36,439 nucleotides of DNA. Source: an uncultured Prevotellaceae bacterium. GTDB lineage: Bacteria; Bacteroidota; Bacteroidia; Bacteroidales; Bacteroidaceae. Location: assembly GCA_900321835.1 (NCBI GenBank), contig ONXQ01000002.1, positions 1 through 36,439 of the forward strand, read 5' to 3'. Each line of letters begins with the position of its first letter. The first letter of the stretch is position 1. Shown in pieces: positions 1 to 34,047 of this stretch. The position numbers and the translations under genes were made by a program. Below the pieces are notes generated by a model. That model was not told the origin of the DNA and searched no databases. It saw nothing but the letters and a program-made list of their open reading frames with translations.

Positions 1-3000
1 GTAGTGCTCATCGCCTCCGAAGGCAAATCCGAAGCAGACGCTGACAACGGTTTCACAACGAAGAACACCAACAGCGGAAGCGAAGTTTATGTACCGGACA
101 GCCAGGCCGATGCAGCAAAGGCATTTGCCACTGGAGCCTACGAGAACGAAGTCACCTTCGTTGTTAGTAACGGAACTGTGAACATCGGTTTCAAAAAGGA
201 CGTTCTCATTGCCAACGACTGGACCTGCTTCGACAACTTCAAACTGATCTACGAAAGTGAAGACGCCCTCGTTGCTCCCGAAATGCCGACCGAGCAGATG
301 TATGCCGGTGCGAAGGCTGAGATGCAGGCTGCGCTTGCAACCTGGACTCACAACAAGAGCACGGACAACTACAATGCACTCGTTGAAAAAATCAACGCTG
401 CCAACCAGAGCGTAGAACTCTACAAGCAGATCAAGGCTCGCCTCGACCTCCTCACGTCGGCAGGCCAGCGCGGTAGCATCAGCGAAGAAGCAGAAAAGGC
501 CATGTCGTTCTACACCAAGTACAGCGACGGTACGGTCAACGAAACTGCCGACGCTACGACAGGTTCCTACACCAGCCTCGACGAAGTGGTTACTGAATAC
601 CAAACCAACATCGCTGCCTACTGGACAGCCAACGCTCCCCAAACAGATGACGACCTCACCGCCCTCATCGCCAACAACAGTTTCGAGTTCGGAAACCTCG
701 ACACTTGGGCACACTACAATGGCGGTGACAGCGATGCCAGGGAGAACGCCAATGCCACATACACCATTGACATTGCCGACGGCAACTACGTCGCCAACTT
801 CTGGAACAACAACAACGCCGTTAAATACATCTTCAAAGACATTGCTCTGCCCAACGGTACTTACGAACTGAAGGCCATCTTCGCCAGTGACGAGGGTGTG
901 ACCATCAACTTCACAGCAGAAAGCGGCATCGGAGCCGACAACAGCATCGGAGAAGTTCGTAACACATTCACCTCTGAAGCAGACAAGGGAGTCGGCGCAG
1001 AGAAGACTCTCGAAGTAGTTGTTCACAACGGAACACTCCGCCTCGGAGCCAACACGACTTCATGGTTCAAGGTCGATAACTTCCGCCTCATCTACAAGAG
1101 TGCTGACGCAACTGTTGCTCCTGCCCTGGCCGAAGGTCAGATGAGCCAGACAGCCAAGCAGGCTATGCTCGACGCTCAGGCCGCACACACTGCAACGCCG
1201 AGCGTAGAAAACTACAACGCACTTCTTGACAAGATTGCCGAAGCCAAGCAGAGCATTGCTGTCTATGAGCAGATTGCAAACACTCTCGCAAAACTCACGG
1301 AGAATGCCAGCCAGCGCGGTGACATCGACGAGGCCACAGAAAAGGCCATGACGTTCTACACCAACTACAGCGCCGGACAGGTCAACGGAGCCGCCGATGC
1401 TACGACGGGTACCTACGAGACGCTCGACGACATGATTGCACAGTACAGAACAGACATCGCTGCCTACTGGACAGCCAACGTGGCTGACGGCAAGGACCTC
1501 ACCGCCTACATCGTTAACCAGGGCTTCGAGTTCGGTAACGTTGTTGGTTGGGAAGAAGAGAACAAGGGCGGTGGCGTTGATGCCGGCGCACGTGATGCCC
1601 ACAACGAAACCTATATATTCTCTGATTCAGAGGGTGACTTCATCTTCAACAGTTGGAACAACAACTGGGCAGAGATTACCCTTACTCAGACACTGAACGG
1701 AGTGCCTCAAGGTACATACGAATTGACAGCCGTATTTGCTGCCGAAGGTTTCAACAACATTGAATTCATCGGTACGAATATCCGCGAAGACGGTACACCC
1801 GATGAGACCGCCGACAAGTTCCGCCCGGTTGACATCAATCAGCGCGCTGACAAGAAGACAGGTCTGACTGACACCATCGAAGTGTTCGTCACCGACGGTA
1901 AGTTGAAGATCAACGGCAACACTTGGGGCTTCTTCAAGGCCGACAACTTCCGCCTCGTCTATAAGAGTGCCACCCTCTCCGATCTTGCCAACGAACCGAT
2001 GAACCGGTACGAGAAGAACGACTATGACGCAGCAAAGGCTGCCTACGAGGAGAATCCTACTCAGGAGAATCTCCGCGAGTTGGCTGCCTGCAAGATTATT
2101 TGTGAGAACAGTATCAAGGCCTACAAGGCTGCCAAGAAGACGCTCGACCACGTGAAGGACATGATGGACCACACCAATGTCTATACCTACGAAGCCTTCT
2201 TCACCATCGACGACATGTACCGCAAGTACGGTCCAGAAGAAGGTTTCTACGGATTCCGAACGCTTGAAGACGACGAGGCTTACGACCTCGAGCGTATGTT
2301 CTTCGGTAACGGTAACTACCGTGATTCGAACAATGAGAATATTCCTGCCGTTCCGTTCATTGCCAGCGCTTGGGACTGCGGTCACAACGGTTACGCATAC
2401 GTTGAGACAGGCCCAGGCAAGGAAGGCACTGAGCCCGGCTCTGACTACTATGGCAACACATGGTCGCGCGAAGGTCTGGACGATGGCACCAACATGCTGA
2501 CTCCGTATCTTGAATACTGGCGCTATGGCGACCAACTGCTCAATCCGCGCGTGTTGACTGCCACTGTCGAAGGTACGCCTAATGCCGAATATACCGTGAA
2601 GATGTTTGTTCGCGTCCGCACGAATGTACAATATGTCGTAGGTGATGACTCGACAAAGCCACACGGCATGACCATTCAGATTGGCGACGGAGCAAAATTC
2701 ACTCCGAACTGGCAATACATTGACAACGAGGGAACTCAGTACGTTCTCAACAACGCACGCCAACTTTGGGTCTGCAACCTCTGGCTGCCCGCGCATCAGG
2801 GTGACGCCAACAACGCTTCGTACTTACTGCCCACAGGTAATGCTGACGCAGATGGTAACTTCAAGATTAAGTTCGAAATCGAAGAAGGCTCTAACGTCAC
2901 ATGGTTGTCGATGAAGGATGTCTATGTGAACTACGAAACTGAAATTCCAGAGACAGAAATGGCAGCCCTGGAGGCTCAGATCAACTATGCCGATGCCCAC

Positions 3001-4650
3001 AAACTCGGCTTCGACTTCAAGGGAGACGAGCACGGAACCGCCGTTGACGAGTATGCTCCTTACAACAACGTTCAGCAACTCATGGCCCTGAAACGTGCCA
3101 AGCAGGTTTACGACTCTCCGCAGAACGTGTTCCTCGTCAGAAATGTGACGAAAGCACTCAAGGCTGTCAACTACGACGACGAGAACATGGACGACCTCCA
3201 TCCTGTTTACAACGAAGCAACTGACCTTTGGACCAAGAACACCGAAGAGATGAACGGCTTCTACTGGAAGAACAACTACACCAACAGTGATGTCGAGCAT
3301 ATTGAATGGTACGAGTACGAAGATGACTGTATCACGCCTTCGGGCTGGGACCTCATCGGACGTAACGACGGTTTCAATACTGGAATCAAGAAACTGGGTG
3401 TCAACACCGAAGACACAGGCATGAAGGCTCTCGAAGACCAGACTGGTCTGCTGACCAAGTACGAAACCGACTACGGTAGGCAGGTAGGTTACACTCTCCC
3501 GCTCAAGAAAGGCGTGAAGTACATCATGACCTTCAAGTATGCCTACATGGGCGAAGGCACATGCACCGAACCCACTGACATCACGTTGACCGTGCCCGCT
3601 GCCGGTGCCTCTGGTGATGATACCACAACCAGTGGACTTGAAGTCACGACATTCACGCCCGAAGGTCAAGGTACTGAAGACCTGGGCAAATGGAAGATGT
3701 ACCGTGCAACCTTCACTCCGACCCTCGAGATTGTTGATGAACATGGTAATCATGCAGCAGATGCCAACTACCTCATCACGTTCGACAAGGACAACGCACA
3801 CGATCCTGTGCCCGTCATGATGGGTGAACTGACCCTCGTACGCTACAAGGAAGCAGCCGCCCTGGGCAACAACATCCTTATCGACGGTACGAACCAGGCT
3901 GGTTACAGTTACACGCCCGACTTCGTCGGTGGTGACTTCAAGGTAACCCGCTCGTGGAACAACGGTGGTGAAACCGCAGACGGTGCTTACAACACGCTCG
4001 TCCTTCCGTTCTCTCTGGACGGCAGCGAACTGAAGACAGCCCTCGGCGATAACTTCAACGGCAAGGTTTACTTCTACACCGGTGCCACCTACACTGGCGG
4101 TGACGAAAACTACACCTTGAACTTCGATGAGCGCGAAAATTCGGGTATCTTCGCCAACGTTCCTGTCCTCATCTGGAACGAAAAGGCCAACTCGATCAAC
4201 AACCTCACCAACTACGAGTTCAAGAACACGGTAACAAAGTATGTCAAGAACAACCTCACCGTTGACCCTGGTTACAATGATGATACGAAGTACAAGTACA
4301 ACTTGGTGGGAACCTACGAAACCATCAAGATTCCTGCAGGCGCTTCCTACATCACAGCCGACAACAACTTCAAGAAGTCAACCGGCAAGGCCAACCTGGC
4401 TGCTACCCGCGCCTACTTCATCCCATTGGACAAGGACGGAAACGTTAGTACGATGGCCAAACTCATGGGCTTCCGCATCAACGACATTCCGACTGGCATC
4501 ATGGCCATCGAAGAGGACGGTGAGATGCACGTGACTTCGGGCAACATCTACACGGTTGACGGCCGTCTGGTTCGCCAGAACGCTACCAGCCTTGAAGACC
4601 TGCCGAAGGGTATTTACATCGTAGATGGTAAGAAATATTTTGTGAAATAA
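1..4650 (+). CDS. Large modular secreted protein, C-terminal 1549 codons (5' end outside window)
   Basis: The reading frame is open from the first base, so the true start lies upstream and the GTG at position 4 is not a credible start. Residues below count from that GTG. The visible part holds two copies of a unit of about 280 residues, at roughly 90-365 and 370-655. Each copy has a helical stretch (AEGQM/PTEQM to 'IAAYWTAN') followed by a beta-sandwich-like module opening with SFEFGNLDTW or GFEFGNVVGW. The latter resembles carbohydrate-binding or galactose-binding-like modules. A different region follows at about 660-1300. Then comes a beta-rich module (about 1310-1500, 'NTLVLPFSLDG' to 'AKLMGFRINDIPTGI'). 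The last 35 residues (NIYTVDGRLV...KGIYIVDGKKYFVK) are a type IX-like C-terminal sorting or anchoring tail. Function is unrecognised. An extracellular glycan-binding or structural role is inferred from the modules. A 67-aa protein begins 27 nt downstream. Confidence 0.85.
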   Translation, partial: VVLIASEGKSEADADNGFTTKNTNSGSEVYVPDSQADAAKAFATGAYENEVTFVVSNGTVNIGFKKDVLIANDWTCFDNFKLIYESEDALVAPEMPTEQMYAGAKAEMQAALATWTHNKSTDNYNALVEKINAANQSVELYKQIKARLDLLTSAGQRGSISEEAEKAMSFYTKYSDGTVNETADATTGSYTSLDEVVTEYQTNIAAYWTANAPQTDDDLTALIANNSFEFGNLDTWAHYNGGDSDARENANATYTIDIADGNYVANFWNNNNAVKYIFKDIALPNGTYELKAIFASDEGVTINFTAESGIGADNSIGEVRNTFTSEADKGVGAEKTLEVVVHNGTLRLGANTTSWFKVDNFRLIYKSADATVAPALAEGQMSQTAKQAMLDAQAAHTATPSVENYNALLDKIAEAKQSIAVYEQIANTLAKLTENASQRGDIDEATEKAMTFYTNYSAGQVNGAADATTGTYETLDDMIAQYRTDIAAYWTANVADGKDLTAYIVNQGFEFGNVVGWEEENKGGGVDAGARDAHNETYIFSDSEGDFIFNSWNNNWAEITLTQTLNGVPQGTYELTAVFAAEGFNNIEFIGTNIREDGTPDETADKFRPVDINQRADKKTGLTDTIEVFVTDGKLKINGNTWGFFKADNFRLVYKSATLSDLANEPMNRYEKNDYDAAKAAYEENPTQENLRELAACKIICENSIKAYKAAKKTLDHVKDMMDHTNVYTYEAFFTIDDMYRKYGPEEGFYGFRTLEDDEAYDLERMFFGNGNYRDSNNENIPAVPFIASAWDCGHNGYAYVETGPGKEGTEPGSDYYGNTWSREGLDDGTNMLTPYLEYWRYGDQLLNPRVLTATVEGTPNAEYTVKMFVRVRTNVQYVVGDDSTKPHGMTIQIGDGAKFTPNWQYIDNEGTQYVLNNARQLWVCNLWLPAHQGDANNASYLLPTGNADADGNFKIKFEIEEGSNVTWLSMKDVYVNYETEIPETEMAALEAQINYADAHKLGFDFKGDEHGTAVDEYAPYNNVQQLMALKRAKQVYDSPQNVFLVRNVTKALKAVNYDDENMDDLHPVYNEATDLWTKNTEEMNGFYWKNNYTNSDVEHIEWYEYEDDCITPSGWDLIGRNDGFNTGIKKLGVNTEDTGMKALEDQTGLLTKYETDYGRQVGYTLPLKKGVKYIMTFKYAYMGEGTCTEPTDITLTVPAAGASGDDTTTSGLEVTTFTPEGQGTEDLGKWKMYRATFTPTLEIVDEHGNHAADANYLITFDKDNAHDPVPVMMGELTLVRYKEAAALGNNILIDGTNQAGYSYTPDFVGGDFKVTRSWNNGGETADGAYNTLVLPFSLDGSELKTALGDNFNGKVYFYTGATYTGGDENYTLNFDERENSGIFANVPVLIWNEKANSINNLTNYEFKNTVTKYVKNNLTVDPGYNDDTKYKYNLVGTYETIKIPAGASYITADNNFKKSTGKANLAATRAYFIPLDKDGNVSTMAKLMGFRINDIPTGIMAIEEDGEMHVTSGNIYTVDGRLVRQNATSLEDLPKGIYIVDGKKYFVK

Positions 4651-4677: not shown

Positions 4678-4881
4678 ATGAAAAAGATATATTCTGAGCC
4701 GAAGATGCTCACAAGAAACTGCGATATGGATACCGAACTGCTCGGTGCATCCCTCGACCCCAACAACCCGACCGACCTGCCTGGTGGCACCGAACCCGGT
4801 AAGGACCCGAACCCGGACGAGGATGATGAATGGGGCGGCGCCAAAGGACGCGACGGCTGGGATGCCAACGGTCTCTGGTAA
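4678..4881 (+). CDS. Small acidic protein of 67 aa, MKKxYxxP...LW type
   Basis: The ATG lies 27 nt after the stop of the giant secreted protein, and no terminator separates them, so the two are probably cotranscribed. A strong terminator follows 46 nt after the stop. The protein starts MKKIYSEPKML, has no signal peptide or membrane segment, and carries a Pro/Asp/Glu-rich middle (DPNNPTDLPGG, DPNPDEDDEW). It ends DGWDANGLW. A second protein of the same design (MKKKYIMPQ... ending DFGNLW) sits in the equivalent position behind another giant protein at 33877-34047. From memory, many Bacteroidales genomes hold short proteins opening MKKxYxxP; I know of no established function. Coding status is supported by the position, the conserved ends and the terminator placement. 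No function is proposed beyond a possible link to the preceding exported protein. Confidence 0.75.
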   Translation: MKKIYSEPKMLTRNCDMDTELLGASLDPNNPTDLPGGTEPGKDPNPDEDDEWGGAKGRDGWDANGLW

Positions 4882-4927
4882 GCCAACCATCTGACAAACT
4901 CCGGCAACATGGCCGGACCTACGATAG

Positions 4928-4972
4928 GCAGGGGTGTGGAACACGCGTTCCACACCCCTGCTGCTTTTTTTT
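4928..4972 (+). terminator. Strong rho-independent terminator
   Basis: A perfect 15-bp inverted repeat (GCAGGGGTGTGGAAC at 4928-4942 and its complement at 4947-4961) has a 4-nt ACGC loop and is followed by eight T residues at 4965-4972. It ends the transcript of the first giant gene and its small partner. Confidence 0.93.
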
Positions 4973-5376: not shown

Positions 5377-8300
5377 ATGAAAAAAATGTTTCTCCTTTTG
5401 CTGGGTTTCCTGCCGATGGCAGGACTGGCACAGAGCACTTACGTGAGTCCGACGGAAGGCGTGCTGACGAGCACGTTTGTCGATGAGGCCACGATGAAGC
5501 AGGACCTGCTGCAGATGCTGGCCGACTTCTCGCTCTACATGAAGAATGACTTCCAGTCGGTGGACAACACCTACGGCTATTTCAAAGGCGAAAGCAGCGG
5601 CCAGTCGAACGAGGCTGGCGTGCGCACCAATGCCGACCTCTCAATGATTTGCGCCTTCCTGCTGAAGTATGCGCAGGGCAAGGTGACGCTGCCCAGCGGT
5701 GTGACGTGGGCCGACATCGAGACGATGGCTCGCAAGTCGCTGGCCTGGGCCTACGGCACGCACAAGGCGAACAAACTGCGGCAGACGACGAACTCGGCCT
5801 ACTGGGGCAGCACGTCGAGCAGCGACTATGTGTGGGAGTCGAGCCTGTGGGCCATGTCGGTGGCCTACTCGGCTTTCTTCCAATGGGAGGCGCTGACGGC
5901 TGCGCAGAAGGGATATGTCGAGGCGCTGCTGAAGGCGGAGTGCAACTACGAACTGCAGCGCTCCATCCCGACGGGCTACGCTGGCGACACGAAGGCGGAG
6001 GAGAACGGCTGGGAGGCTGACGTCCTGGCGGCCACGCTGGGTCTGTTCCCCGACGACGCACTGGCCTCGCAGTGGTTCGACCGTCTGCGTCAGTTTGCCG
6101 TCAACAGTTACAGCCATGCCACCGACCTGCAGAAGCAGACGGCACTCGACCCGTGGTACAACAGCCACACGGCTGCCGACCTCTATCTGGGCAAAAACAT
6201 ATATGACGACTATACGCTGCAGAACCACAATATGTTCCACACGTCCTACCTCAACGTCGTGATGCAGGAACTGGGCGAGGCTGCGCTGGCGCTGAAGATG
6301 TTCCAGACGGGCGTCAGCGGCAAGGAGACTTGGCGCACCCGTGCCCTCATGCACAACAACCAGCAGGTGATGGACGAGGTGCTCGACTGGCTGGCCACGA
6401 GCGACGGCGAACTGGCCATGCCGAACGGCAACGACTGGAGTCTCTTCCTCTTCGACCAAATCACCAGTTACTCGACACAGGCTTGTATGCAGCACGATGC
6501 CAATGCCCTGCTGCTGGAGAACCTGGCTTACAAGAACATCAAGGCCCGGCAGACGACAACCAGCGACGGCTCGTGGCTGCTGCGCCCCGACGTCAGTGCC
6601 CGCCGCATGGGTGTGGAGGCTCACCGCGTGATGATGACCTACCTGATGCACGAGTTCTACTCCACTGCCGACCTCGCCCCGACGACGTGGGATGCGTTCC
6701 GCGTTGCTTATGGCAAGACCAAATACTTCCCGGCGCAGAACATCGTCCGCTCGATGTCGAAGGACCGCTTCACCTGTTTCTCCTGGAACACGAGCCTGCC
6801 CGACTACAGCGGCGTCATCGTGCCGAACGACGTGGACAAGGCGAAAATCATGGTGCCCTTCCGCACCCACCATACTGGCAACCTGCTCGGTGTCTATTCG
6901 CGTGCGGACTACTCGCTGAGCAAGGCCGGCCAGTATGCGCTCTACCCCAATGCCTACGCCATGAACGGCGTGGTCAGCGTGAGCGGCATTCCGCAGGCCT
7001 TCTGCCTCTACGCCACGAGCGGCAACGCCGTCATCCTCGTTGACGCCCTCAAGGCTGCAAGCGCCACGTCGGTGTCGAGCGAACAAGGCGGCATGATGGG
7101 CATCTCGGTCGATGAGTTCACCAACACGCAGCGCACCATCTACTATCAGGGCGGCAGCGTGACGACCGACGGCGCCTCGTACAGCACATGGACGTCGCCG
7201 TGGTCGAACATCGACAACTATCTTGGTTTTGTCGTGACGAAACACGGCGAAACCGTGACGGGTGCCTTTGGCGACAAATCGAACAACAACAGCATCATGA
7301 CGGCTAAGATTTACCCGTCGTACAACGGCAGCAGCAGTGCAGTCGGCACGTCGATGAACCACATCCGGGGCTTCATATACTACACCGGCGTGACGGCTGC
7401 GCAGACTCAGACCCTGAGCAGCGCTGTCCAGGACCTGACGACGCTCGCCTCGTGGCCCGAGGGATGGCACGGCGTACTTGTGCCCGACCCCGACGGAACG
7501 TACTACCTGCTGCTGACCAACCTCTTTGCCGACGACTACACGCCGTGGGAGAACCTCAGCGTGACCTGTCCGCTGGGCGCTCCCGTCTTCACCCAGACCA
7601 CAGCCATCGCTGGTGCCAACTCGACCGCCACGTTCTACTGTGCGAAAGACTTTAACATCGCCAACGAACTGAAGGTCTTTGTCAAGGGCGCCACAGCCCT
7701 CAACGCTGTGCAGGCCGATGAAAACAGCCGCGCCGTCTATCTGCAGAACGAGCAGACGTCGGCCCAGAACGTGACGGTCTCTATCATCGACCCGGACGGA
7801 GCGACAAGAAGCGCCAGCATCAGCGTGCCTGCCAACGGATGCGTCCTCGTCCGACTCAACGGCGGTTCCGTCGTTCAGGAAAGTGCGACGTGGCCTGGCG
7901 ACTACCGCAATGTGGCCTTCGGCACGTCGGTTTTGGCCAACAGTTACGACGGATCACACCTGCCCTTCAACTGCATCGACGGCGACGACGCCACCTACTA
8001 TCAAAGCCTCAACACTGCCTCTGCCGGCACGGAGCACCTCACCATAGCCCTGCGCAATCAGTATCAGATTGACAAAATCGTCGTAACGCCACAGCCGGGC
8101 CTGCCTGCTCCGACGAGCATCATTGCCCAGTATGGCGACGACGAAAGTTCGCTGACCGCGCTGCCGAACGTGACCACAGCCAGCGTCGATGGCAACACCG
8201 TCCTCACCTTCGACGCCGTGCCAGCCCGCTTCGTGCGCCTCCAACTGCTCGGTTCGTCGCAGGTGGCTGTCCAGAAAGTCGCAGTCTATGGCTCAGTCAG

Positions 8301-10722
8301 TAATAGCAAGGAAGAAGACCCCAACGACTACACCGGCTACATCACCAACCCGTCGTTCGAAACGGGCGACCTCACGGGATGGACGGTAGCCAGTTCGAGC
8401 GACACAGGAGTGCGTTCGACCACCCACGACACTTATGTCATGAGCAATTCGCACGGCGACTACCTGTTCAACACATGGTGGAAGGGCAACCCCATCACTC
8501 AGACGACGCAGGTGCTGCCCGCCGGCACCTACACACTCTCGGCAGTGGTGGCGAGCGACAACGGCGCACGCATTTTCATGCTCGTCGATGGCGACCACAG
8601 TTCCTATGTTGACCCTGCCGACAAAGGGACAGGCGTCACCCTCTCGCACACCTTCACCCTCGACACAGACAGAGCCGTGACCATCGGCATCGTGGGCGGC
8701 ACGGACGGCAAAGAATACACTGCCGACGGCTACTACTGGTACAAGGTCGATAACTTCCGTCTGAAGAAGGTTGACGACGAAAGTCTGGCAGAAAAGTATT
8801 TCGACAACCCTTCGTTCGAAAAAGATGACATCTCCACGCTCAGCACCGATGCCACACGCGGAGCCTACACCATCACTGCGCCTGCCAACTGGACACTCAG
8901 CGGCAACACACCCGACGTTCACGACATCATGACGGCCTCTGCCACGGCCACCGACAACAACTTCGGCGCTCCGGGCGCACCTACCGACGGCAGCCAGATG
9001 TTCTACCTTCGCGTCGGTTGGTACAACTGGGCCACCACCCTTTCCACCACCTCTTCTCAGGCTTTGCCCGCCGGCAAATACCGCATCAGTTTCGACTACC
9101 GCACAGGCTATGCCCAAAGTGCCGCGTCATCGTTCGTCTTTTCGTGCGCCGGTGTGAGCAACAGCAGCGTGACGTTCAACAAAGGCGGACTGAGCGGCTG
9201 GCAGACAGCATCCATCGAGTTCACACTGACCTCGGCGCAGACCATCACGCCACAGATTGTGCTGACGTGGAAGTCGGGCGGCAGCAGTTTCCTGATGGAC
9301 AACCTGACGCTTGAAGAAATCATCGACGCGACCGACTACTCCGCCCTGCACAAGGAGCAGATGATCCAGAACGGCGGCGATGCGACCTTCCTGCTGCAAG
9401 ACCCCAAGTGCGAGTCGGCTGCAGGCACGAAGTGGACCGGTTCGACAGGTGCCATTTCGCTGCGCGAGCACTGGAGCGGCGAAGGTTTGCTGAACACCTA
9501 CCAGGAGCGCACAGCGTCGGGCACGGTGTCGCAGACGCTCTCCAACATGCCGGCAGGGACGTATAAACTCGTCGCTGCTCTGCGTGCCAACACCGGCTGC
9601 ACCATCACGCCGCGGCTGAACTCAACCAGCGGCGCCACATTCTCAGGCACGGGCAACGGCAGCACCACCGTGGCCCAAATCAACAAGAACGGCGTTCAGA
9701 TGCCTTTCGATGCCGATCGTGGCTTCACCACAAAGGCAACCGGCCGCGGATGGCAGTGGGGTTCCGTGACGGCTACGACCACAGCCGACGGCGACCTCAC
9801 CGTGGCCTTCGACATGACGGGTTCGTCGTGGATGAGTATTGACGACGTTCACCTTTATTACATGAACGACGGAACAACCGACTACTGCGAAAGCATCGAT
9901 GCGGCGGCTGACGTTCTCGAGGTGGAGACGACGGGCAAAACCGTCACGGCTGACATCATCGTCCGCAATCCCAACACCGTCATCCGTTCCGCTTCGCAGG
10001 TGTTCACCGACAATGCCGCTGCCAACAACAACCTCGTGGGCAGCACGACGATGCAGAACCTTGTGCTCTACGACGGCTACGACTTTGGCTGCACAGCCAC
10101 GCAGTTCAGCCTCACGAAAGGCAGTTACCAGCGCACGATGAGTTACAACTCTTCGCTCTCGACCTACGCCGAATGGGGCACCCTGCTGCTGCCCTACCCA
10201 GCCGAGAGCAACGAGCAGGTGCAACTGTACCGCTTGAAAGGCATGACCGACGAGTGGCTGACCTTTGAGAAGGCCGATGCGGTCGGTGCCAACACACCCT
10301 TCGTCTTCCGCTGTCTCAACGGCAACAAAGTCCTGTTCAGTGCGGCGCAGACAACGGCCGTGGGTACCGACCAGCCGCAAAACCCCGACTTCATGTCGAT
10401 TGCCGGCTGCAACGGCGCAGGATTCTACACGGCGCAGGTGATTGCCGACGACAACGCCTACTACATCGCGCAGGACAAGTTCTGGAAAAGCAGCGGAACG
10501 TTGCAGATTCCCGCTTTCCGTTCCTTTTTCCGCACATCAAGCAGCGCCAAGATGCTGGGCATACGCTTCGACGACTCTGTGCCCACAGCCATCAGCCAGC
10601 CGACCGAGAACAACGCTGCTGCCCCCGTGCTGTACGACCTTCAGGGCCGCCGCGTAGCCAACGACAAGCCGCTCCACAGGGGCATCTACGTGGCAGACGG
10701 ACAGAAGATTCTGGTGCGCTAA
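5377..10722 (+). CDS. Secreted multidomain carbohydrate-active-like protein (lyase-like region, discoidin and CBM-like modules, sorting tail), 1781 aa
   Basis: The frame is open from 5269, but ATG 5377 is chosen because it opens a clear signal peptide (MKKMFLLLLGFLPMAGLAQS) and follows a -7 box. Residues about 25-450 look mainly helical, with conserved-looking stretches MPNGNDWSLFLFDQ (about 347) and RMGVEAHRVMMTYLMHEFY (about 410). Residues 450-830 look beta-rich. This helical-toroid-then-beta layout recalls polysaccharide lyases of the PL8 or heparinase II/III kind, but I cannot assign a family. Residues about 842-971 form an F5/8 type C (discoidin, CBM32-like) domain. Three further modules follow at about 986-1128 (starts NPSFETGDLTGW), 1141-1311 (NPSFEKDD) and 1326-1495. 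A beta-rich module with AKMLGIRFDDSVPTAI ends near 1740, and the tail LYDLQGRRVA...GIYVADGQKILVR is type IX-like. Probably surface-exposed or secreted and glycan-acting. Monocistronic by its own promoter and terminator. Confidence 0.85.
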   Translation: MKKMFLLLLGFLPMAGLAQSTYVSPTEGVLTSTFVDEATMKQDLLQMLADFSLYMKNDFQSVDNTYGYFKGESSGQSNEAGVRTNADLSMICAFLLKYAQGKVTLPSGVTWADIETMARKSLAWAYGTHKANKLRQTTNSAYWGSTSSSDYVWESSLWAMSVAYSAFFQWEALTAAQKGYVEALLKAECNYELQRSIPTGYAGDTKAEENGWEADVLAATLGLFPDDALASQWFDRLRQFAVNSYSHATDLQKQTALDPWYNSHTAADLYLGKNIYDDYTLQNHNMFHTSYLNVVMQELGEAALALKMFQTGVSGKETWRTRALMHNNQQVMDEVLDWLATSDGELAMPNGNDWSLFLFDQITSYSTQACMQHDANALLLENLAYKNIKARQTTTSDGSWLLRPDVSARRMGVEAHRVMMTYLMHEFYSTADLAPTTWDAFRVAYGKTKYFPAQNIVRSMSKDRFTCFSWNTSLPDYSGVIVPNDVDKAKIMVPFRTHHTGNLLGVYSRADYSLSKAGQYALYPNAYAMNGVVSVSGIPQAFCLYATSGNAVILVDALKAASATSVSSEQGGMMGISVDEFTNTQRTIYYQGGSVTTDGASYSTWTSPWSNIDNYLGFVVTKHGETVTGAFGDKSNNNSIMTAKIYPSYNGSSSAVGTSMNHIRGFIYYTGVTAAQTQTLSSAVQDLTTLASWPEGWHGVLVPDPDGTYYLLLTNLFADDYTPWENLSVTCPLGAPVFTQTTAIAGANSTATFYCAKDFNIANELKVFVKGATALNAVQADENSRAVYLQNEQTSAQNVTVSIIDPDGATRSASISVPANGCVLVRLNGGSVVQESATWPGDYRNVAFGTSVLANSYDGSHLPFNCIDGDDATYYQSLNTASAGTEHLTIALRNQYQIDKIVVTPQPGLPAPTSIIAQYGDDESSLTALPNVTTASVDGNTVLTFDAVPARFVRLQLLGSSQVAVQKVAVYGSVSNSKEEDPNDYTGYITNPSFETGDLTGWTVASSSDTGVRSTTHDTYVMSNSHGDYLFNTWWKGNPITQTTQVLPAGTYTLSAVVASDNGARIFMLVDGDHSSYVDPADKGTGVTLSHTFTLDTDRAVTIGIVGGTDGKEYTADGYYWYKVDNFRLKKVDDESLAEKYFDNPSFEKDDISTLSTDATRGAYTITAPANWTLSGNTPDVHDIMTASATATDNNFGAPGAPTDGSQMFYLRVGWYNWATTLSTTSSQALPAGKYRISFDYRTGYAQSAASSFVFSCAGVSNSSVTFNKGGLSGWQTASIEFTLTSAQTITPQIVLTWKSGGSSFLMDNLTLEEIIDATDYSALHKEQMIQNGGDATFLLQDPKCESAAGTKWTGSTGAISLREHWSGEGLLNTYQERTASGTVSQTLSNMPAGTYKLVAALRANTGCTITPRLNSTSGATFSGTGNGSTTVAQINKNGVQMPFDADRGFTTKATGRGWQWGSVTATTTADGDLTVAFDMTGSSWMSIDDVHLYYMNDGTTDYCESIDAAADVLEVETTGKTVTADIIVRNPNTVIRSASQVFTDNAAANNNLVGSTTMQNLVLYDGYDFGCTATQFSLTKGSYQRTMSYNSSLSTYAEWGTLLLPYPAESNEQVQLYRLKGMTDEWLTFEKADAVGANTPFVFRCLNGNKVLFSAAQTTAVGTDQPQNPDFMSIAGCNGAGFYTAQVIADDNAYYIAQDKFWKSSGTLQIPAFRSFFRTSSSAKMLGIRFDDSVPTAISQPTENNAAAPVLYDLQGRRVANDKPLHRGIYVADGQKILVR

Positions 10723-11178: not shown

Positions 11179-11208
11179 TGAATGAATTGTGGGGAATTGT
11201 GGAGAATT
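11179..11208 (+). promoter_or_regulatory. Candidate MraZ operator: three 10-bp direct repeats
   Basis: Three consecutive 10-mers, TGAATGAATT, GTGGGGAATT and GTGGAGAATT, fill the spacer of the mraZ promoter. MraZ of Escherichia coli is known to bind direct repeats of TGGGN with 5-nt spacers upstream of its own gene. Here TGGGG and TGGAG recur with exactly 5 nt between them. Autoregulation of the cluster by MraZ is inferred from this match and its position. Confidence 0.6.
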
Positions 11209-11219
11209 TTGTACCTTTG
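11187..11219 (+). promoter_or_regulatory. Promoter of mraZ and the dcw cluster
   Basis: TACCTTTG at 11212-11219 matches the Bacteroidetes -7 consensus TAnnTTTG. A TTG lies 22 nt upstream at 11187, one base beyond the usual spacing. The start codon is about 54 nt downstream of the box. Upstream, 11117-11160 contains small inverted repeats (CTTGAAA...TTTCAAG and TCAACA...TGTTGA) of unknown role. Confidence 0.65.
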
Positions 11220-11272
11220 CACTCGATAAGGTGTCTTCACACCGTTTTTACGTCATTAAAGGCTTAAAACTC

Positions 11273-11713
11273 ATGAGATTTATCGGCGATTACATAGCGA
11301 AGACGGACTCGAAGGGTCGCGTGTTCCTGCCTGCTCAGTTGCGCAAGATACTGGAGCAGGAAGGCGAGGAGCGCATGATTCTCCGTCCCGACCTGTTCCA
11401 GCCCTGCCTCGTGCTCTATCCCGAGTCGCTGTGGAACGAGATGCTCGACGACATGCGCAACCGTCTGAACCGCTACAACGCCCAGCACCAGGCCATCATG
11501 CGTCAGTTTGTGGCCGATGCCGAGGTGGTCGAACTGGACAGCAACGGACGATTCCTCATGAACAAACGCAAACTGCAATATGCCGGCATCACGCAGGAGG
11601 TGCGCTTCCTGGCCGTCGACGACCACATCGAGGTGTGGGACAAGACGCGCTGCGAACAGATGCTCGCCTCGGTCAACAACCTGGGCGAACGGCTGCAAGA
11701 GGTGATGCAGTAA
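11273..11713 (+). CDS. mraZ: MraZ, transcriptional regulator of the dcw cluster
   Basis: 146 aa, the usual size for MraZ. ATG 11273 (MRFIGDYIAKTDSKGRVFLP) is chosen over upstream in-frame codons because it aligns with the family start and lies behind the promoter. Two SpoVT/AbrB-like half-domains are visible: DSKGRVFLPAQLRK (residues about 13-26) and LDSNGRFLMNKRKL (about 87-100), both with the D-x-x-GR signature. MraZ family members form ring oligomers that bind direct repeats in front of their own gene, and matching 10-bp repeats are present at 11179-11208. It is the first gene of the cluster. The 82 nt before rsmH contain a GC-rich repeat. Confidence 0.95.
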   Translation: MRFIGDYIAKTDSKGRVFLPAQLRKILEQEGEERMILRPDLFQPCLVLYPESLWNEMLDDMRNRLNRYNAQHQAIMRQFVADAEVVELDSNGRFLMNKRKLQYAGITQEVRFLAVDDHIEVWDKTRCEQMLASVNNLGERLQEVMQ

Positions 11714-11726
11714 AGCAACCCCAACG

Positions 11727-11867
11727 CCCTCTCCCTGTGAGGAAGGGGAGAAAGAAACTGAATCCTTTTCACACTTTACACTTACATATAAATATATGTG
11801 TCCCGCGAACACCCACATACAGTCGGAAGTAACCACTCCCCTCCCTCAAAGGGAGGGAGCGGGGGTG
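11727..11867. repeat. Paired GC-rich intergenic repeat between mraZ and rsmH
   Basis: Two imperfect palindromes flank this stretch: CCCTCTCCCTG...GGAAGGGGAG at 11727-11750 and CCCTCCCT-CAA-AGGGAGGG within 11834-11867. They resemble CCCTCCC...GGGAGGG repeats that I recall as common in Bacteroidetes intergenic DNA. The second copy runs into the N-terminal codons of the rsmH reading frame, which casts doubt on the upstream rsmH start. Confidence 0.65.
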
Positions 11868-12815
11868 GGTCTGCCGGAGGTGGCTCTGACGGGGCAATAT
11901 CACATCCCCGTTCTCCTGACGGAGAGCATCGACGGCCTGGACATCCGTCCGGGCGGCGTCTATGTCGATGTGACCTTCGGCGGAGGTGGACACAGCCGCG
12001 AAATCATGCGCCGGCTGACGGAAGGCGGACGGCTGTATGCCTTCGACCAGGACGAGGACGCTTTCGACCACTACAAATACCAGACCGAAAGTGCTGACTT
12101 CGACGAGGTGCGCTTCACCTTCGTCCACAGCAACTTCCGCTATCTGAAGAACTTCCTGCGCTACTATCGTGAGCCGCAGGCCGACGGCATCCTGGCCGAC
12201 CTGGGCGTGTCGTCCCACCACTTCGACGACAGCGAGCGCGGATTCTCCTTCCGTTTCGACGGACCGCTCGACATGCGCATGAACCAGCACGCAAGCCGCA
12301 CGGCTGCCGACGTGCTCAACACCTTCGACGAACGCCAACTGGCCGACATCCTCTATCTGTACGGCGAACTGAAGCAGAGCCGGCGCCTGGCCGCTGCCCT
12401 CGTGGCTGCCCGCCGCAGCCATCCCTTCGCCACCATTCAGGACCTTCGTGCCGTGGCAGAGCCTTTCTGCGGCAAAGACCGTGAGAAGAAAGACCTGGCG
12501 CGTGTGTTCCAGGCCCTTCGCATCGAGGTGAACCAGGAGATGGACGCACTGCGCGAGATGCTGCAGCAGGCCACCGAGGTGCTCCGCCCGGGAGGCCGCC
12601 TGAGCATCATCACCTACCACTCGCTCGAGGACCGCATCGTCAAGAACCTCATGAAGACCGGCAACTGCGAAGGACACGAAGACAAGGACTTCTACGGCCG
12701 CGTCTCCACCCCCTTCCGCCTGGTCAACAGCCGCGTCATCACCCCGTCGGCCGAGGAGCAGGCACGTAACCCCCGCAGCCGCAGCGCCAAACTGCGTGTG
12801 GCCGAACGGCTGTGA
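11796..12815 (+). CDS. rsmH: RsmH (MraW), 16S rRNA m4C1402 methyltransferase
   Basis: This SAM-dependent enzyme N4-methylates C1402 in the decoding centre of 16S rRNA. From ATG 11796 it has 339 residues. The SAM-binding loop is DVTFGGGGHS (GGGGH at 62-66), followed by DQDEDAF. Further family motifs are ILADLGVSSHHFDDSERGFSF and MRMN, with TYHSLEDR near the C-terminus. The first about 25 residues (including TPLPQREGAGVG) come from a GC-rich intergenic repeat and have no family counterpart. GTG 11865, giving 316 aa and starting 14 residues before YHIPVLL, is a better functional start, though ATG 11796 cannot be excluded. Its stop overlaps a GTG that begins the upstream part of the ftsL frame, so translation is probably coupled. 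Confidence 0.95.
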   Translation: MCPANTHIQSEVTTPLPQREGAGVGLPEVALTGQYHIPVLLTESIDGLDIRPGGVYVDVTFGGGGHSREIMRRLTEGGRLYAFDQDEDAFDHYKYQTESADFDEVRFTFVHSNFRYLKNFLRYYREPQADGILADLGVSSHHFDDSERGFSFRFDGPLDMRMNQHASRTAADVLNTFDERQLADILYLYGELKQSRRLAAALVAARRSHPFATIQDLRAVAEPFCGKDREKKDLARVFQALRIEVNQEMDALREMLQQATEVLRPGGRLSIITYHSLEDRIVKNLMKTGNCEGHEDKDFYGRVSTPFRLVNSRVITPSAEEQARNPRSRSAKLRVAERL

Positions 12816-12832
12816 ACACTTTTTCCAACACC

Positions 12833-13318
12833 ATGCCCATGAAGAAGAACATCAACATAGAAGACGAAGAACTCATCGTCCCCGAAGAGGAGACGGTGGA
12901 GACTGCGCCCGAGGCGGACGAGGAACCGACTGCCGAGGAGAAAGAACTCAGCGAGGCGGTCGAACGCTATGTCTCGGACGAGGACGAAGACGACCTCGGC
13001 GAGGTCTCGTTCAAGAGCATCCTCGGCGGCGACTTGCTGCAGAGCCCCTTCTTCCGCCGTCAGGTGATGTTCATCATCTTCGTGGCCGGCCTCCTGCTGT
13101 TCTACACCGGCAACCGCTACTCCAGTCAGCAGGACATCATCACCATCGACTCACTGAAGGTGCGCCTGCAGCAGGAGCGCTACAACGTGCTCACACAGTC
13201 GAGCGAACTGCTCAACCTCAGCCGCCAGTCGAACATTGAGCAGCAACTCCGCCTCTTCGGCGACAGTGCACTTGCCAACCCCACCACTCCCCCCTATGAA
13301 ATCGAAGTAAAGAAGTAG
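12833..13318 (+). CDS. ftsL: FtsL-like cell division protein
   Basis: 161 aa, with an acidic cytoplasmic N-terminal region (about residues 5-65, rich in Glu and Asp), one membrane segment (about 74-93, MFIIFVAGLLLFYTGN) and a short periplasmic heptad-like region (DSLKVRLQQERYNVLTQSSE). This is the layout of the Bacteroidetes FtsL-like protein found between rsmH and the FtsI gene. FtsL is a bitopic divisome scaffold that helps activate FtsWI. ATG 12833 is chosen; ATG 12839 and GTG 12812 (overlapping the rsmH stop) are alternatives. The stop is one base before the ftsI start. Identification rests on topology and position more than sequence motifs. Confidence 0.85.
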   Translation: MPMKKNINIEDEELIVPEEETVETAPEADEEPTAEEKELSEAVERYVSDEDEDDLGEVSFKSILGGDLLQSPFFRRQVMFIIFVAGLLLFYTGNRYSSQQDIITIDSLKVRLQQERYNVLTQSSELLNLSRQSNIEQQLRLFGDSALANPTTPPYEIEVKK

Positions 13319-13319
13319 C

Positions 13320-15533
13320 ATGGCCAAAAAAGAAAAAAATACGAAGAAAACCGTCAGTTCGGGCAAGTTTCCCCTGATCATCTTCCCCATCATAGCCGTG
13401 TGCATCGGCATCATCTACTGCATGGTGAAGACAATGACCATCGACGCCGACTATTGGGAAAAAGTGCGCAAGGACAACTTCGAGAAAGACAGCGTGGAAC
13501 TGAAACCCAACCGCGGCAACATCCTCTCGTCGGAAGGCGAACTGCTGGCCAGCAGTCTGCCCAACTACAAGGTGCGCTTCGACTTCGGCACCACCGTCAC
13601 CATTCCCATGCAGGTGACCGTCGGCAAGGGCGACAAACAGCGCACCAAGACCAAGTATGTCGTGCTCGACTCCCTCCAGCGAGACTCCTGCATCCTGGCC
13701 AACCTTCCGGCCATCAGCGGAGGCCTGGCCCGCATTTGTCCTGCCCTCGACTCGGCCGGCTACTACCAGCATCTGGCAAAAGGTCTGGAGGAGCACAAGC
13801 GCTACTACGACGTATGCCCCGGCTACATCCTCAACTTCATCCAGTACAACCAACTGCGCGAACTCCCCATCTTCAACATACGCACAAAATACGGCAGTGG
13901 CATCATCGTCGAAGAACGTAACAACCGCAAGAAGCCCTTCGGTTCGCTGGCCCGCCGTACCCTGGGCGAAATGTTCGGTGCCAAAGACAGTGCCCGCAGC
14001 GGACTCGAACTGGCCTACGACTCGCTGCTGCGCGGCCAAAGCGGACTTCTGCACCAGCGCCGCATCCGTTCGAAGAATGTGGACATCGTTGACCAAGAGC
14101 CTGTTGACGGCTACGACCTTGTCTCCACCATCAACGTGTCAATGCAGGACATCTGCGAGACTGCCCTCCGGGAAAAACTGCTGGAGGTGAATGCCGAGTT
14201 CGGCGTCGTAGTGCTGCTGGAGACGAAGACCGGCGACGTGAAAGCCATTGTCAACCTGGCCCGCGACTCGGTGAGCGGCAACTACTACGAGATGCGCAAC
14301 TACGCCCTGGCCGCCCTGATGGAGCCGGGCTCAACGTTCAAGACTGCCTCCATCATGGTGGCGTTGGACGACGGCGAAATCACACTCAACGACAAGGTTG
14401 ACACGGGCTGTGGCGTCTATAACATGCACGGAGCCAAGATGAAAGACTCCAACTGGGCGCGTGGCGGCTGTGGCGTGTTGGACGTGACTTACGCTGTGGT
14501 GCGTTCGTCGAACATCGGCGTCAGCCGTCTCATCGACAGCCACTACCACGACAAGCCTGAGAAATTCATTGAGGGCCTGAAGCGCGTCGGCATCGGTGCT
14601 CCGCTCGGACTTCCCTTCTACGGCATGGCCGATCCGCGCATCTGGGGACCGGAGAACAAGTCGTACTGGTCGGAAGTGGCGCTGCCGTGGATGTCCATCG
14701 GCTACGGCACTCAGATACCTCCCATTTCGACTGTGACATTCTACAACGCCATTGCCAACGGCGGCAAGATGGTTCGTCCGCGCTTCGTCCGCGGCATTTC
14801 GAAGAATGGCGAGATGGTGCGCGAGTTCCCCGTACAGGTCATCAAGGAGCACATCTGCAAGGAATCGACCCTGAAGGACATTCAGGGCATACTCTATAAA
14901 GTGGTGAACGACAAGAAGTTCGGCACAGGCAAGCGTGCAGCCAGCAAGCATTTCAGCGTGAGCGGAAAGACGGGTACGGCGCAGGTGGCCATCGGTGGCG
15001 GTTATCACAACGGCCGCACCGAGCACCTCGTCAGTTTCTGCGGATACTACCCGTCTGAAAATCCGCAATATACCTGCATCGTGGCCATCCGCACCGCTGC
15101 GGGCGGTGTGTCGGGCGGCGGTACGGCGGGCACGGTGTTTGCCAAGATTGCCGAGCGTGTCTATTCGAAAAACGTGACCACCGACATCCGTCGTGCTGCC
15201 GACTCGCTCTCCATCTTCGTGCCCAGCGTAAAGAACGGCGACATGGCTGCAACGACCGCGCTGCTGAAGCAGATGAACATTCCCTACACAGGCGAGGAGT
15301 CGCGGTGGAGTTCGGCCACGCACGACGCAGAGCAGGTGACTTTCGCGCCGCTTGCGACCGACTCGGCCATCATGCCCGACCTGACGGGTATGGGTGCCCG
15401 CGATGCCGTCTATGCCATCGAGAGCCGCGGCATGAAGGCGCGTGTGCGTGGCTACGGTCGGGTGAAGAGCCAGAGCCTGCCTTACGGGAGCAAGGTGCAG
15501 GAGGGCAAGGTTGTCACTTTGGAACTGAACTAA
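13320..15533 (+). CDS. ftsI: FtsI, septal class B penicillin-binding protein with PASTA domain
   Basis: 737 aa. An N-terminal membrane anchor (about 13-37) is followed by a pedestal domain ([16 protein letters not shown] at about 60) and a transpeptidase domain. The three active-site motifs are complete: S338-T-F-K341, S396-S-N398 and K550-T-G-T. Residues about 684-737 form one PASTA repeat ([20 protein letters not shown]). The enzyme cross-links septal peptidoglycan in the periplasm with the glycosyltransferase FtsW, encoded further down. The gene starts 1 nt after ftsL stops, so the pair is almost certainly cotranslated. Confidence 0.97.
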
Positions 15534-15552
15534 AACAACTCTTACGATAGCC

Positions 15553-16998
15553 ATGAAGTTAAACGTATTGACTGAACTTGTTCCGCTGCTCGAAGTGCAG
15601 GGCAGCATGGAACGCGACATAACGGGCGTGAGCATCGACTCGCGCCGGGTGGAGAGCGGACACGTGTTTGTGGCCGTTCGTGGCACACAGGCCGACGGCC
15701 ACCGGTTCATTCCGAAGGCCATCGAGCAGGGCGCTGCGGCCATCGTGTGCGAGGAGATGCCCGAGCAGCGCAGCGAAGGCGTGACCTATCTGAAGGTGGA
15801 ATGTTCGGAGCAGGTGGTGGGCCAGTTGGCCTCCAATTTCTACGGACGTCCGTCGCAGCAGATGCGGCTGGTGGGCGTGACCGGCACGAACGGCAAGACC
15901 ACCATCGCCACCGTGCTCTACAACCTGATGCGCCGCCTGGGCCATCGTGTCGGCCTGCTTTCGACCGTGTGCAACTACATCGACGGCGAGGCGGTTCCGA
16001 CCGACCACACGACGCCCGACCCCGTGACGCTCAACCAGTTGCTCGCCCGCATGGTCGATGCTGGCTGCGACCTCTGCTTCATGGAGGTCAGTTCGCACAG
16101 CGTGGTGCAGAACCGCATCGGCGGACTCACGTTTGCCGGCGGCATCTTCACCAACTTGACGCGCGATCATCTTGACTACCACAAGACGTTCGAGAACTAT
16201 CTGCACGCCAAGCAGCAGTTCTTCGACCGTCTGCCTGCCTCGGCCTTTGCCGTGACCAACGCCGACGACCGCAATGGCATGGTGATGGTGCAGAACACCC
16301 GTGCCGCGGTGAAGACCTACTCGGTGCAGCAGGTGGCCGACTTTCGCGCACGCATCCTTGAGAGCCACTTCGAGGGTATGTACCTCGAGATGGACGGACA
16401 GGAGGTGGGTGTGCAGTTCGTGGGCCGTTTCAACGTTTCCAACCTGCTCGCCGTCTATGCTGCCGCCGTGCTGCTGGGCGAGGAGAAGATGGATGTGCTC
16501 GTCGCGCTGAGCGAGATGAAGCCCGTGAGCGGCCGCTTCGAGGCGCTGCGCTCGCCCGACGGCTACACGGCCATCGTCGATTATGCCCACACGCCCGACG
16601 CGCTGGAGAATGTGCTGCGTGCCATCCACGGCGTGCTTGAGGGCCGCGGCCGCGTCATCACCGTCTGCGGCGCCGGCGGCAACCGCGACAAGGGCAAGCG
16701 TCCGCTCATGGCGCAGGAGGCCGTCAAGCAGAGCGACCTCGTCATCCTGACCAGCGACAATCCGCGCTTTGAGGAGCCGCAGGCCATCCTCGACGACATG
16801 ATGGCGGGGCTCGACAAGGAGCAGATGCGCAATGTGCTCTGCATCGTTGACCGCCGCGAGGCCATCCGCACGGCCTGCCGCATGGCGCAGAAGGGCGACG
16901 TGATTCTCGTGGCCGGCAAGGGCCATGAGGACTATCAGGAGGTGCAGGGCGTGAAGCATCACTTCGACGACAAGGAGGAACTGCGGGCCGCCTTCTGA
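15553..16998 (+). CDS. murE: MurE, UDP-MurNAc-tripeptide ligase (meso-diaminopimelate type)
   Basis: 481 aa. A cytoplasmic ATP-dependent ligase that adds the third residue of the stem peptide to UDP-MurNAc-L-Ala-D-Glu. The ATP loop is G111-T-N-G-K115-T-T, with HTTPDP and the central MEVSSHSV stretch following. The substrate-selecting motif reads D402-N-P-R405; the arginine form is characteristic of meso-DAP-adding enzymes rather than L-Lys ones, which fits a Gram-negative wall. It begins 19 nt after ftsI and is followed by a hairpin cluster and a 206-nt gap before mraY, so it may end a transcription segment. Confidence 0.97.
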
Positions 16999-17035
16999 GC
17001 AGGGACGCCGCTGTCCGTGCAGAAGCGCACCGCAG

Positions 17036-17131
17036 TCGGGCCGAATTTCGTCCGCAGATGAAATTTTTTTCGTCCGCAGTTGAAATTTATTTCGTCCGCA
17101 GACGAAATTTTGTTCGTCCACAGTGCAAATT
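17036..17131. repeat. Hairpin cluster 2 (TTTCGTCYGCRGACGAAA family), murE-mraY gap
   Basis: Four tandem hairpin units, beginning near 17044 (TTTCGTCCGCAGATGAAA), then TTTCGTCCGCAGTTGAAA, TTTCGTCCGCAGACGAAA and a diverged copy (TTCGTCCACAGTGCAAA). The first stem is followed by a T run. About 64 bp of this cluster match cluster 4 after ftsZ with only about two differences, including the order of the variant units. The rest of the gap (17132-17204) is AT-rich, with no consensus promoter that I can defend. Confidence 0.88.
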
Positions 17132-17204
17132 CCGGCACACTGCAGCCTGCCGCCCGGTTTTGTTTGAATTTATCAGTCTATCAACTTTAATATAACTTAA
17201 TCAG

Positions 17205-18470: not shown

Positions 18471-18477
18471 GGACAAT

Positions 18478-19809: not shown

Positions 19810-19813
19810 ACCT

Positions 19814-21127: not shown

Positions 21128-21146
21128 CATTTTTAGAGAGAAAAAC

Positions 21147-21177
21147 TTGCTGAAAATCAATATTTTTTGTATTTTTG
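21147..21177 (+). promoter_or_regulatory. Internal consensus promoter in front of murG
   Basis: TTG at 21147-21149 and TATTTTTG at 21170-21177 are separated by 20 nt, matching the Bacteroidetes -33/-7 consensus in sequence and spacing. It lies in the ftsW-murG gap, 31 nt before the murG ATG. It suggests murG can be transcribed independently of the upstream genes. Confidence 0.75.
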
Positions 21178-21208
21178 CAGAGTAAGAACCAGACAACGAC
21201 TTCGCAAT

Positions 21209-22333: not shown

Positions 22334-22335
22334 GA

Positions 22336-22425
22336 ACCGTCCACAGTCGGACCAAATTTCGTCCGCAGACGAAAAAAATTTCATCCACAGACGAAATAAA
22401 TTTCATCCACAGACGAAATTCAGCC
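22336..22425. repeat. Hairpin cluster 3 (TTTCGTCYGCRGACGAAA family), murG-murC gap
   Basis: Three units: TTTCGTCCGCAGACGAAA at about 22358, then two diverged copies, TTTCATCCACAGACGAAA, at about 22379 and 22401. The spacers here are A-rich rather than T-rich, so terminator activity on the + strand is less likely than at clusters 2 and 4. The remaining 43 nt before murC show no promoter consensus. Confidence 0.86.
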
Positions 22426-22468
22426 CGACTACCACATTATCCAACCCTACGACACACATCATCAGCCC

Positions 22469-23851: not shown

Positions 23852-23884
23852 GCCCCACCTTCACACCCCCACAAGCGAAACCTC

Positions 23885-24661: not shown

Positions 24662-24699
24662 CCCACAACAAGACAAAACAACCAAAACATCACAACTAT

Positions 24700-26313: not shown

Positions 26314-26360
26314 TTCCCCCTCCCATCATTCTGAAAACTGAAAACTAAAATACACAAGAT

Positions 26361-33876: not shown

Positions 33877-34047
33877 ATGAAGAAGAAATATATAATGCCT
33901 CAGCAGAAAACATCCAACACAGACATTCTCGATTCGTTCATGGAATGGATCAGTCAAGGACCCGACACGGGAGTATTCGACACCAAGCAGCGTGAAGACG
34001 CCGAGCAGGACCCCGACACCCAGAACGACTTCGGAAACCTGTGGTAA
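33877..34047 (+). CDS. Small acidic protein of 56 aa, MKKxYxxP...LW type
   Basis: ATG 33877 opens MKKKYIMPQQKTSN, then DILDSFMEWISQGPDTG and an acidic C-terminal half (REDAEQDPDTQ) ending NDFGNLW. There is no signal peptide or membrane segment. It lies 66 nt after the giant beta-helix gene, with only a hairpin between, and before a terminator-like structure at 34169. It shares its opening (MKKxYxxP), acidity and LW end with the 67-aa protein at 4678-4881, which sits in the same place behind another giant exported protein. The rest of the two sequences does not align well. Function unknown. Confidence 0.7.
   Translation: MKKKYIMPQQKTSNTDILDSFMEWISQGPDTGVFDTKQREDAEQDPDTQNDFGNLW

Follow-up and report, generated by a model that had tools for sequence, protein, structure and literature searches.

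Small acidic proteins encoded behind giant T9SS cargo genes in a Prevotella-like bacterium are most likely members of a family of peptide precursors

Results

Two small genes lie behind giant T9SS cargo genes

We analyzed a window of 36,439 nt, which is one entire contig from the 2.38-Mb, 87% complete draft genome of an uncultured Prevotella-like member of the Bacteroidaceae. Three giant genes on the forward strand, which also carries the small genes and the terminator described below, encode T9SS cargo with C-terminal signals (CTDs) of the short type published for Prevotella intermedia (PMC11969387, 2025). The first (1-4650; 1,549 codons in the window) is cut at its 5' end by the contig start and closes with a CTD (4495-4647) that has a PT/GI cleavage consensus, motif B (IYTVDGR), motif D (GIYI), and motif E (KKYFVK). 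The second lies at about 5377-10722, with its CTD (PTAI) at about 10588-10719. The third (28534-33810) has a hydrophobic N-terminal stretch and a short CTD of the GxN type (PTAI ... GLNIV) at about 33670-33807. The cleavage consensus of the three giants reads PTGI, PTAI, and PTAI, and all three have motif B (YDLQGRR and similar), motif D as GxY or GxN with Ile, and a basic motif E. The pattern PT.I was present in 20 of 62 cargo tails and in 6 of 831 control windows. No match to the general T9SS models TIGR04183 and PF18962 was obtained for the window tails, whose length is below that of the model. The host genome has five PorV-family matches, the best at 2.8e-85. A sequence-only reading of the window had described the giant partners as exported; the tail was found on all three, and any signal peptide of the first giant would lie in the 5' part that the contig start cuts off.

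Two of the giants are followed by a small gene. The first (4678-4881) encodes a 67-aa protein (MKKIYSEP...DANGLW; MKKIYSEPKMLTRNCDMDTELLGASLDPNNPTDLPGGTEPGKDPNPDEDDEWGGAKGRDGWDANGLW) that starts 27 nt past the stop codon of the tail gene ending at 4650 and is followed by an intrinsic terminator (4927-4970) with a 16-pair stem and a T-run. The second (33877-34047) encodes a 56-aa protein (MKKKYIMP...DFGNLW; MKKKYIMPQQKTSNTDILDSFMEWISQGPDTGVFDTKQREDAEQDPDTQNDFGNLW), with an NLW end, 66 nt downstream of the tail gene ending at 33810. We looked for a terminator behind this second gene and found none; behind the cargo gene at 5377-10722 there is a hairpin only and no small gene. The sequence-only reading had noticed both arrangements, the first ORF between a tail gene and a terminator and a second protein of like design behind another tail gene; both were borne out, and the two-ORF observation turned out to be stronger than claimed. 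Pfam and NCBIfam scans assigned the small proteins to no family, no solved structural relative of the precursor was found, and a literature search for MKKxYxKP strings returned no matches. A sigma-70-like site overlapping the second ORF was dismissed as a promoter, since Bacteroidota promoters follow a different consensus. The region between the two cargo-precursor pairs (11189-27686) holds, as judged by eye, an mraZ or division-and-cell-wall type cluster.

The small genes belong to a large family under purifying selection

We then looked across the host genome with a DNA pattern for MKKxYxxP (ATGAARAARNNNTAYNNNNNNCC). It gave eight matches in the 2.38-Mb genome and none in a reversed control, and the small-gene pattern is therefore not due to chance. 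Seven of the eight matches were acidic small ORFs. Five of these end in LW; in another, LW lies 12 residues before the end, and the last is cut by a contig end. The same pattern found dozens of matches in 12 congeners and almost none in their reversed sequences. A profile built from 66 members then hit 21 places in the host genome, about 20 of which are family members, including ones with the variant starts MNKKxY, MKRxY, and MNMNKKxY. Most end exactly in LW.

Looking for MKKxYxxP-type ORFs behind tail genes was a check proposed along with the original observation. For this we used a tail profile trained on other genomes only, with a cutoff of E <= 5e-4. Among the 18 members in the host genome whose context could be read, 16 sit behind a tail gene (E 2e-15 to 4e-4), at distances of -4 to +106 nt; the other two (L123 and L126) have no neighboring cargo gene. 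Genus-wide, 60 of 62 genes upstream of members carried a motif-D-like tail, in a set conditioned on an upstream ORF within 160 nt. Conversely, only about a third of the pattern-matched tail genes carry a small gene, overlapping cases having been added by hand. Tandem precursor pairs behind a single cargo gene were seen at L049:3904-4261 and L096:4056-4418.

The ratio of nonsynonymous to synonymous change, proposed earlier as a refuting test, came out in favor of translation: omega was 0.03 to 0.44 (19 of 21 related pairs where it was computable) and 0.31 when the window gene was paired with its orthologue in G007, which indicates that the small proteins are translated and under purifying selection. 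All six Leu codons are used before the last Trp, and all four Gly codons are used in GLW. The C-terminal LW, at 4873-4878 in protein 1, is therefore conserved across the family as protein and not as RNA. Most likely, the two mini-proteins are part of a large family of bacterial peptide precursors that had not been described before.

The small proteins have a leader-like N terminus and an acidic remainder

Protein 1 consists of a YxxP leader, a hydrophobic patch, a Ser, and an acidic Pro/Gly/Asp core with a GLW end. A Tyr-anchored alignment of 101 nonredundant members gave the same layout, with alternating hydrophobic residues at Y+5, +7, +10, and +12 and a hydrophobic patch at Y+15 to +17. A Ser at Y+18 to +21 was present in 81 of the 101, against 28.1 expected and a maximum of 44 in 2,000 shuffles. 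The mean charge is +1 on the leader side and -6.5 over the remainder. In 45 of the 101 members, Lys-x-Arg stands ahead of the Trp-rich end (in the window, for example, within 4840-4878) and may serve as a protease site.

Lasso-type RiPP recognition elements (RREs) bind the YxxP motif (PMC12710340). A YxxP leader is also found in the linear polyphosphorylated peptides (LPPs), RiPPs of Bacillota, described from the lpp cluster of Paenibacillus alginolyticus, in which an HprK-like kinase phosphorylates core Ser3 (Popov and colleagues, PMC13381572, 2026). YSEP in protein 1 (4690-4701) is, on the model of lasso and LPP leaders, a candidate RRE-binding motif; its counterpart in protein 2 is YIMP (33889-33900). 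Ser25 of protein 1 (Y+20; 4750-4752) may likewise correspond to the phosphorylated core Ser of LPPs, and protein 2 has Ser26 (Y+21; 33952-33954). YxxP is a short motif. Because random ORFs, too, can match a loose YxxP expression near PqqD genes, we counted a sequence only if it had the full layout.

In two congeners, at L073:4055-5515 (G009) and L092:4082-5503 (G007), the reading frame of a YxxP...GLW precursor behind a cargo gene continues through a signal-peptide-like stretch into a secreted nuclease-like protein (YSRGHLCPSADRL). These are natural fusions of a precursor with an exported protein; the L092 fusion itself ends in EIALW.

These features bear on the idea that each small protein is a dedicated cytoplasmic chaperone or secretion pilot of its giant cargo, comparable to the small acidic chaperones encoded beside secreted substrates. 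Being small, acidic, and without an export signal, and lying next to cargo in 16 of 18 cases, the proteins have some of the expected properties. However, L123 and L126 stand without a cargo gene, and about two thirds of the pattern-matched cargo tails lack a small gene. The small proteins keep the same motifs at both termini although the cargo bodies are unrelated, and their YxxP and Ser pattern is in line with an RRE leader. No known chaperone fold suits proteins so small and so low in complexity. We therefore regard a chaperone or pilot as quite unlikely. The proposal of a dedicated partner stood as far as genomic linkage is concerned; a cargo-specific chaperone or pilot is made less likely by the two solo copies and by an architecture that stays the same behind unrelated cargo.

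An RRE, a kinase, and a protease are encoded together elsewhere in the genome

The host genome encodes one discrete PqqD-type protein (89 aa; L211:5890-6156, minus strand; PF05402, E 2.4e-15), whose gene shares an operon with those of an HprK-like P-loop protein and an S24/S26-type protease. An AlphaFold2 model of the PqqD protein has the RRE fold (pLDDT 87). The model's best PDB matches were TbiB1 and TfuB1 (TM about 0.75), two lasso RREs whose solved structures include leader peptides, and a sequence profile independently found TfuB1 at 6e-5. The kinase, which adjoins the RRE and the protease, has a remote match to HprK_rel_A at 5.6e-5, below that model's cutoff. The protease has invariant S33, H71, and D100 (alignment A4), which match residues tested in LppS; its structural matches were LexA and signal-peptidase folds, none of them below E 0.001. 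A second PqqD domain in the host genome (L212:5732-7216) is fused within a radical SAM-like protein of about 494 aa, as judged by eye, and probably serves a separate peptide pathway.

We also considered that the small proteins are lasso-peptide precursors. The RRE is most similar to lasso RREs, the small proteins have a YxxP leader, and 2 of 66 members weakly match the lasso_cyano model (E 0.0046). Their sequences contain no Thr(-2)/Gly1 arrangement, however, and we rejected the lasso class, because the B2 protease (PF13471) is absent from the host genome and from the 12 congeners (0 of 13). We consider a lasso precursor family very unlikely.

In one-genome-per-species contigs, we found at least 590 confirmed kinase stretches. 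Both the protease and PqqD lay beside the kinase in 74 of 80 kinase loci from named genomes, among the matches listed; these genomes are mostly rumen Prevotellaceae and also include Hoylesella marshii, Prevotella veroralis, Segatella albensis, and Hallella multisaccharivorax. A small YxxP gene was nearby in only 2 of the same 80 loci, again among the matches listed. In this group, as in the window's genus, precursors and machine are encoded apart, in trans. The exception is locus L215 of congener G006: downstream of the operon, and in its orientation, come three tail genes, and behind these lies a YxxP small gene, which adds a connection between machine and small proteins.

The NTP-transferase (PF14907) was not found in the host's own 87% complete genome; it is present in several congeners and adjoins the RRE in G055 and G025. 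An ABC exporter, a possible counterpart of the MsbA-like exporter of LPPs, follows the operon in L220, L245, L251, and L403-L405; none lies at the host operon, and no exporter dedicated to the pathway was identified. In the capsule clusters of G025 and G071, PqqD, NTP-transferase, and kinase genes occur with a small ORF kilobases away, which is suggestive only. Two Bacteroides-like loci (L213 and L214) have a single MKKxYxxP small gene at the end of a capsule or exopolysaccharide-type cluster with NTP-transferase, PqqD, and HprK-like genes, and the lipoprotein-like gene adjoining the small gene ends in NSWDK or AIGWD.

Related small genes lie within the operon in other families

We found YxxP small genes of the same layout inside the operon or next to PqqD at loci from other Bacteroidales families, outside the window's family (L245, L251, L253, L255, L404-L408, L412, and L416). 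In L245, the row of genes is a small ORF, kinase, protease, PqqD, NTP-transferase, and ABC transporter. The small ORF lies between the PqqD position and the kinase in L251, L404, L405, L406, L407, L408, L412, and L416 (the PqqD of L408 was not detected) and directly behind PqqD in L253 and L255. The in-operon leaders resemble KKKNYISPDFEEILIDSSITLIMQS, and 12 of 12 carry Ser or Thr at +18 to +20.

The gene directly before PqqD encodes T9SS cargo in L251, L253, L403, L404, L405, L412, and L416, and TIGR04183 scored above its cutoff in all seven. The link to cargo is thus not peculiar to the genus of the window. As read from the gene order, cargo, RRE, peptide, kinase, protease, and exporter can apparently stand together as one operon. 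At 12 PqqD loci of other Bacteroidales (L231, L232, L238, L239, L246, L249, L254, L256, L259, L262, L264, and L266), PqqD is followed by an 'IAVTGLNxxDxPGPGV' protein and a protein of about 450 aa. The latter begins MExxxYERPxIxKLxxGMPxKFG, which places [YF]xxP at the start of a large protein beside an RRE.

PqqD presence alone was dropped as a marker of co-occurrence, because it is nearly universal in the family and also occurs in unrelated contexts; the kinase took its place. The kinase and the small proteins co-occur across 91 genomes of the family (55/7/13/16; p = 1.7e-5, confounded by phylogeny). Eight genomes, five of them at least 87% complete, have the small family and no detected kinase. 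A profile of the in-operon leaders separated the family as a group only (mean of 3.7 versus 1.6 bits) and did not single out either window protein, which is the main weakness of the link. In the window's genus, where the precursors are in trans, the connection between machine and precursors runs through motif, analogy, and co-occurrence.

The small proteins might also be mere neighbors, an acidic family spreading with cargo genes by duplication and unlinked to the PqqD operon. The lack of adjacency between precursors and machine in this genus, with small ORFs in 2 of 80 kinase loci among the matches listed, agrees with this idea. The in-operon small ORFs of the same layout in other families, the co-occurrence, and the conserved Ser argue against it, and we consider it unlikely.

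Discussion

The sequences establish the pairing of small genes with cargo genes, the family, the selection on its coding sequences, and its leader architecture, together with the presence and conservation of the three-gene machine and the YxxP ORFs within operons elsewhere. The sequence-only reading had offered a chaperone, a secretion pilot, a regulator, or a peptide precursor. Among these four, a peptide precursor is favored by the YxxP leader, the conserved Ser behind a hydrophobic patch, the acidic core, the operon for an RRE, kinase, and leader peptidase in the host genome, and the in-operon relatives. We think it quite probable that the 67-aa and 56-aa proteins are cargo-linked RiPP-type precursors, LPP-like in logic, that are served in trans by one RRE/kinase/protease machine.

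About 20 precursor genes, spread over the genome, are the last genes behind T9SS cargo genes; cargo and precursor would be cotranscribed and are probably made together. The leader, with its MKKxYxxP start, alternating hydrophobics, and hydrophobic patch, would then dock on the one PqqD-type RRE protein encoded elsewhere, the HprK-like kinase would modify the Ser, and the protease would free the acidic core ending in LW. A shared enzyme set elsewhere in the genome thus probably trims and phosphorylates the precursors. Once mature, the peptide would probably work together with, or next to, its cargo on the cell surface. We infer this binding, phosphorylation, cleavage, export, and function from the gene layouts and sequence features described above.

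The PorU sortase normally attaches T9SS cargo to LPS (PMC11969387), and this makes a peptide that helps to anchor, tag, or regulate the cargo an attractive idea. In its fullest form, the idea is a RiPP pathway dedicated to T9SS: many surface-cargo operons would each carry a precursor of their own, and one central machine would turn these into acidic peptides, phosphorylated and ending in Trp, that join the cargo at the surface and serve as anchors, cofactors, or tags. We put this form forward tentatively, as one possibility.

The precursors might instead give rise to a secreted signaling peptide or bacteriocin from the same RRE pathway, the T9SS linkage serving coregulation only. This is a subcase of the precursor reading and shares its evidence; the ABC exporters after the operon in L220, L245, L251, and L403-L405, and the Lys-x-Arg that 45 of 101 members have ahead of their Trp-rich end, are in keeping with it. 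About 20 paralogues sharing a C terminus in one genome would be unusual for such a peptide, though, and no linked immunity or receptor gene was seen. We consider it possible but somewhat doubtful.

If the precursor reading is true, LPP-like RiPPs reach the abundant Bacteroidales of the gut, rumen, and mouth, beyond their stated restriction to Bacillota, and a peptide-maturation pathway is tied to the main surface-protein secretion system of Bacteroidota. It would account for many 'hypothetical' small proteins per genome and would represent an architecture of one machine and many precursors. It would also give a lead on the role of LPPs, namely, a cell-surface function together with specific exported proteins.

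Comparison with known systems

The window giants share a PT/GI-type cleavage site, motif B, a GxY/GxN motif D, and a basic motif E with the short-CTD cargo of P. intermedia, as set out in the available text of PMC11969387. Here, a precursor lies behind a subset of the cargo, whereas that portion of the source mentions no small partner gene.

The small proteins can also be compared with other known peptides. GG-leader peptides and bacteroidetocins of Bacteroidales have double-glycine leaders and C39 exporters. Like ours, they are small peptide precursors, but the double-glycine leader and C39 exporter were not seen here. Paeninodin-like phosphorylated lasso peptides share an RRE, an HprK-like kinase, an NTP-transferase, an exporter, and a Y/WxxP leader with the present system; they differ from it in that we found no B2 protease and no sign of macrolactam architecture.

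A close resemblance of parts is seen with LPPs, which combine a YxxP leader, a discrete RRE, an HprK-like kinase, an archaeal-type SpI-like leader protease that needs the RRE, an NTP-transferase, and an exporter (PMC13381572). LPPs are stated there to be restricted to Bacillota, with their role unknown, and 'Bacteroid*' is absent from the main text. Several differences set the present system apart. The host is a member of the Bacteroidota, the precursors are in trans at about 20 per genome, they lie behind T9SS cargo and not in capsule loci, and they end in LW. Of the full LPP leader consensus, YxxPxVLxHQxIxFETxxS, the hydrophobic alternation and the Ser are present, and HQ and FET are absent. 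Because HQ and FET are missing and no NTP-transferase was found in the host genome, we file the system as LPP-like and not as LPP. What it has in common with LPPs is a YxxP leader on a precursor within the range of 35 to 200 aa, a Ser near position Y+18, a discrete PqqD-type RRE, an HprK-like kinase, an SpI-like Ser-His-Asp protease, and the lack of a cyclase; an NTP-transferase and an ABC exporter would be optional parts.
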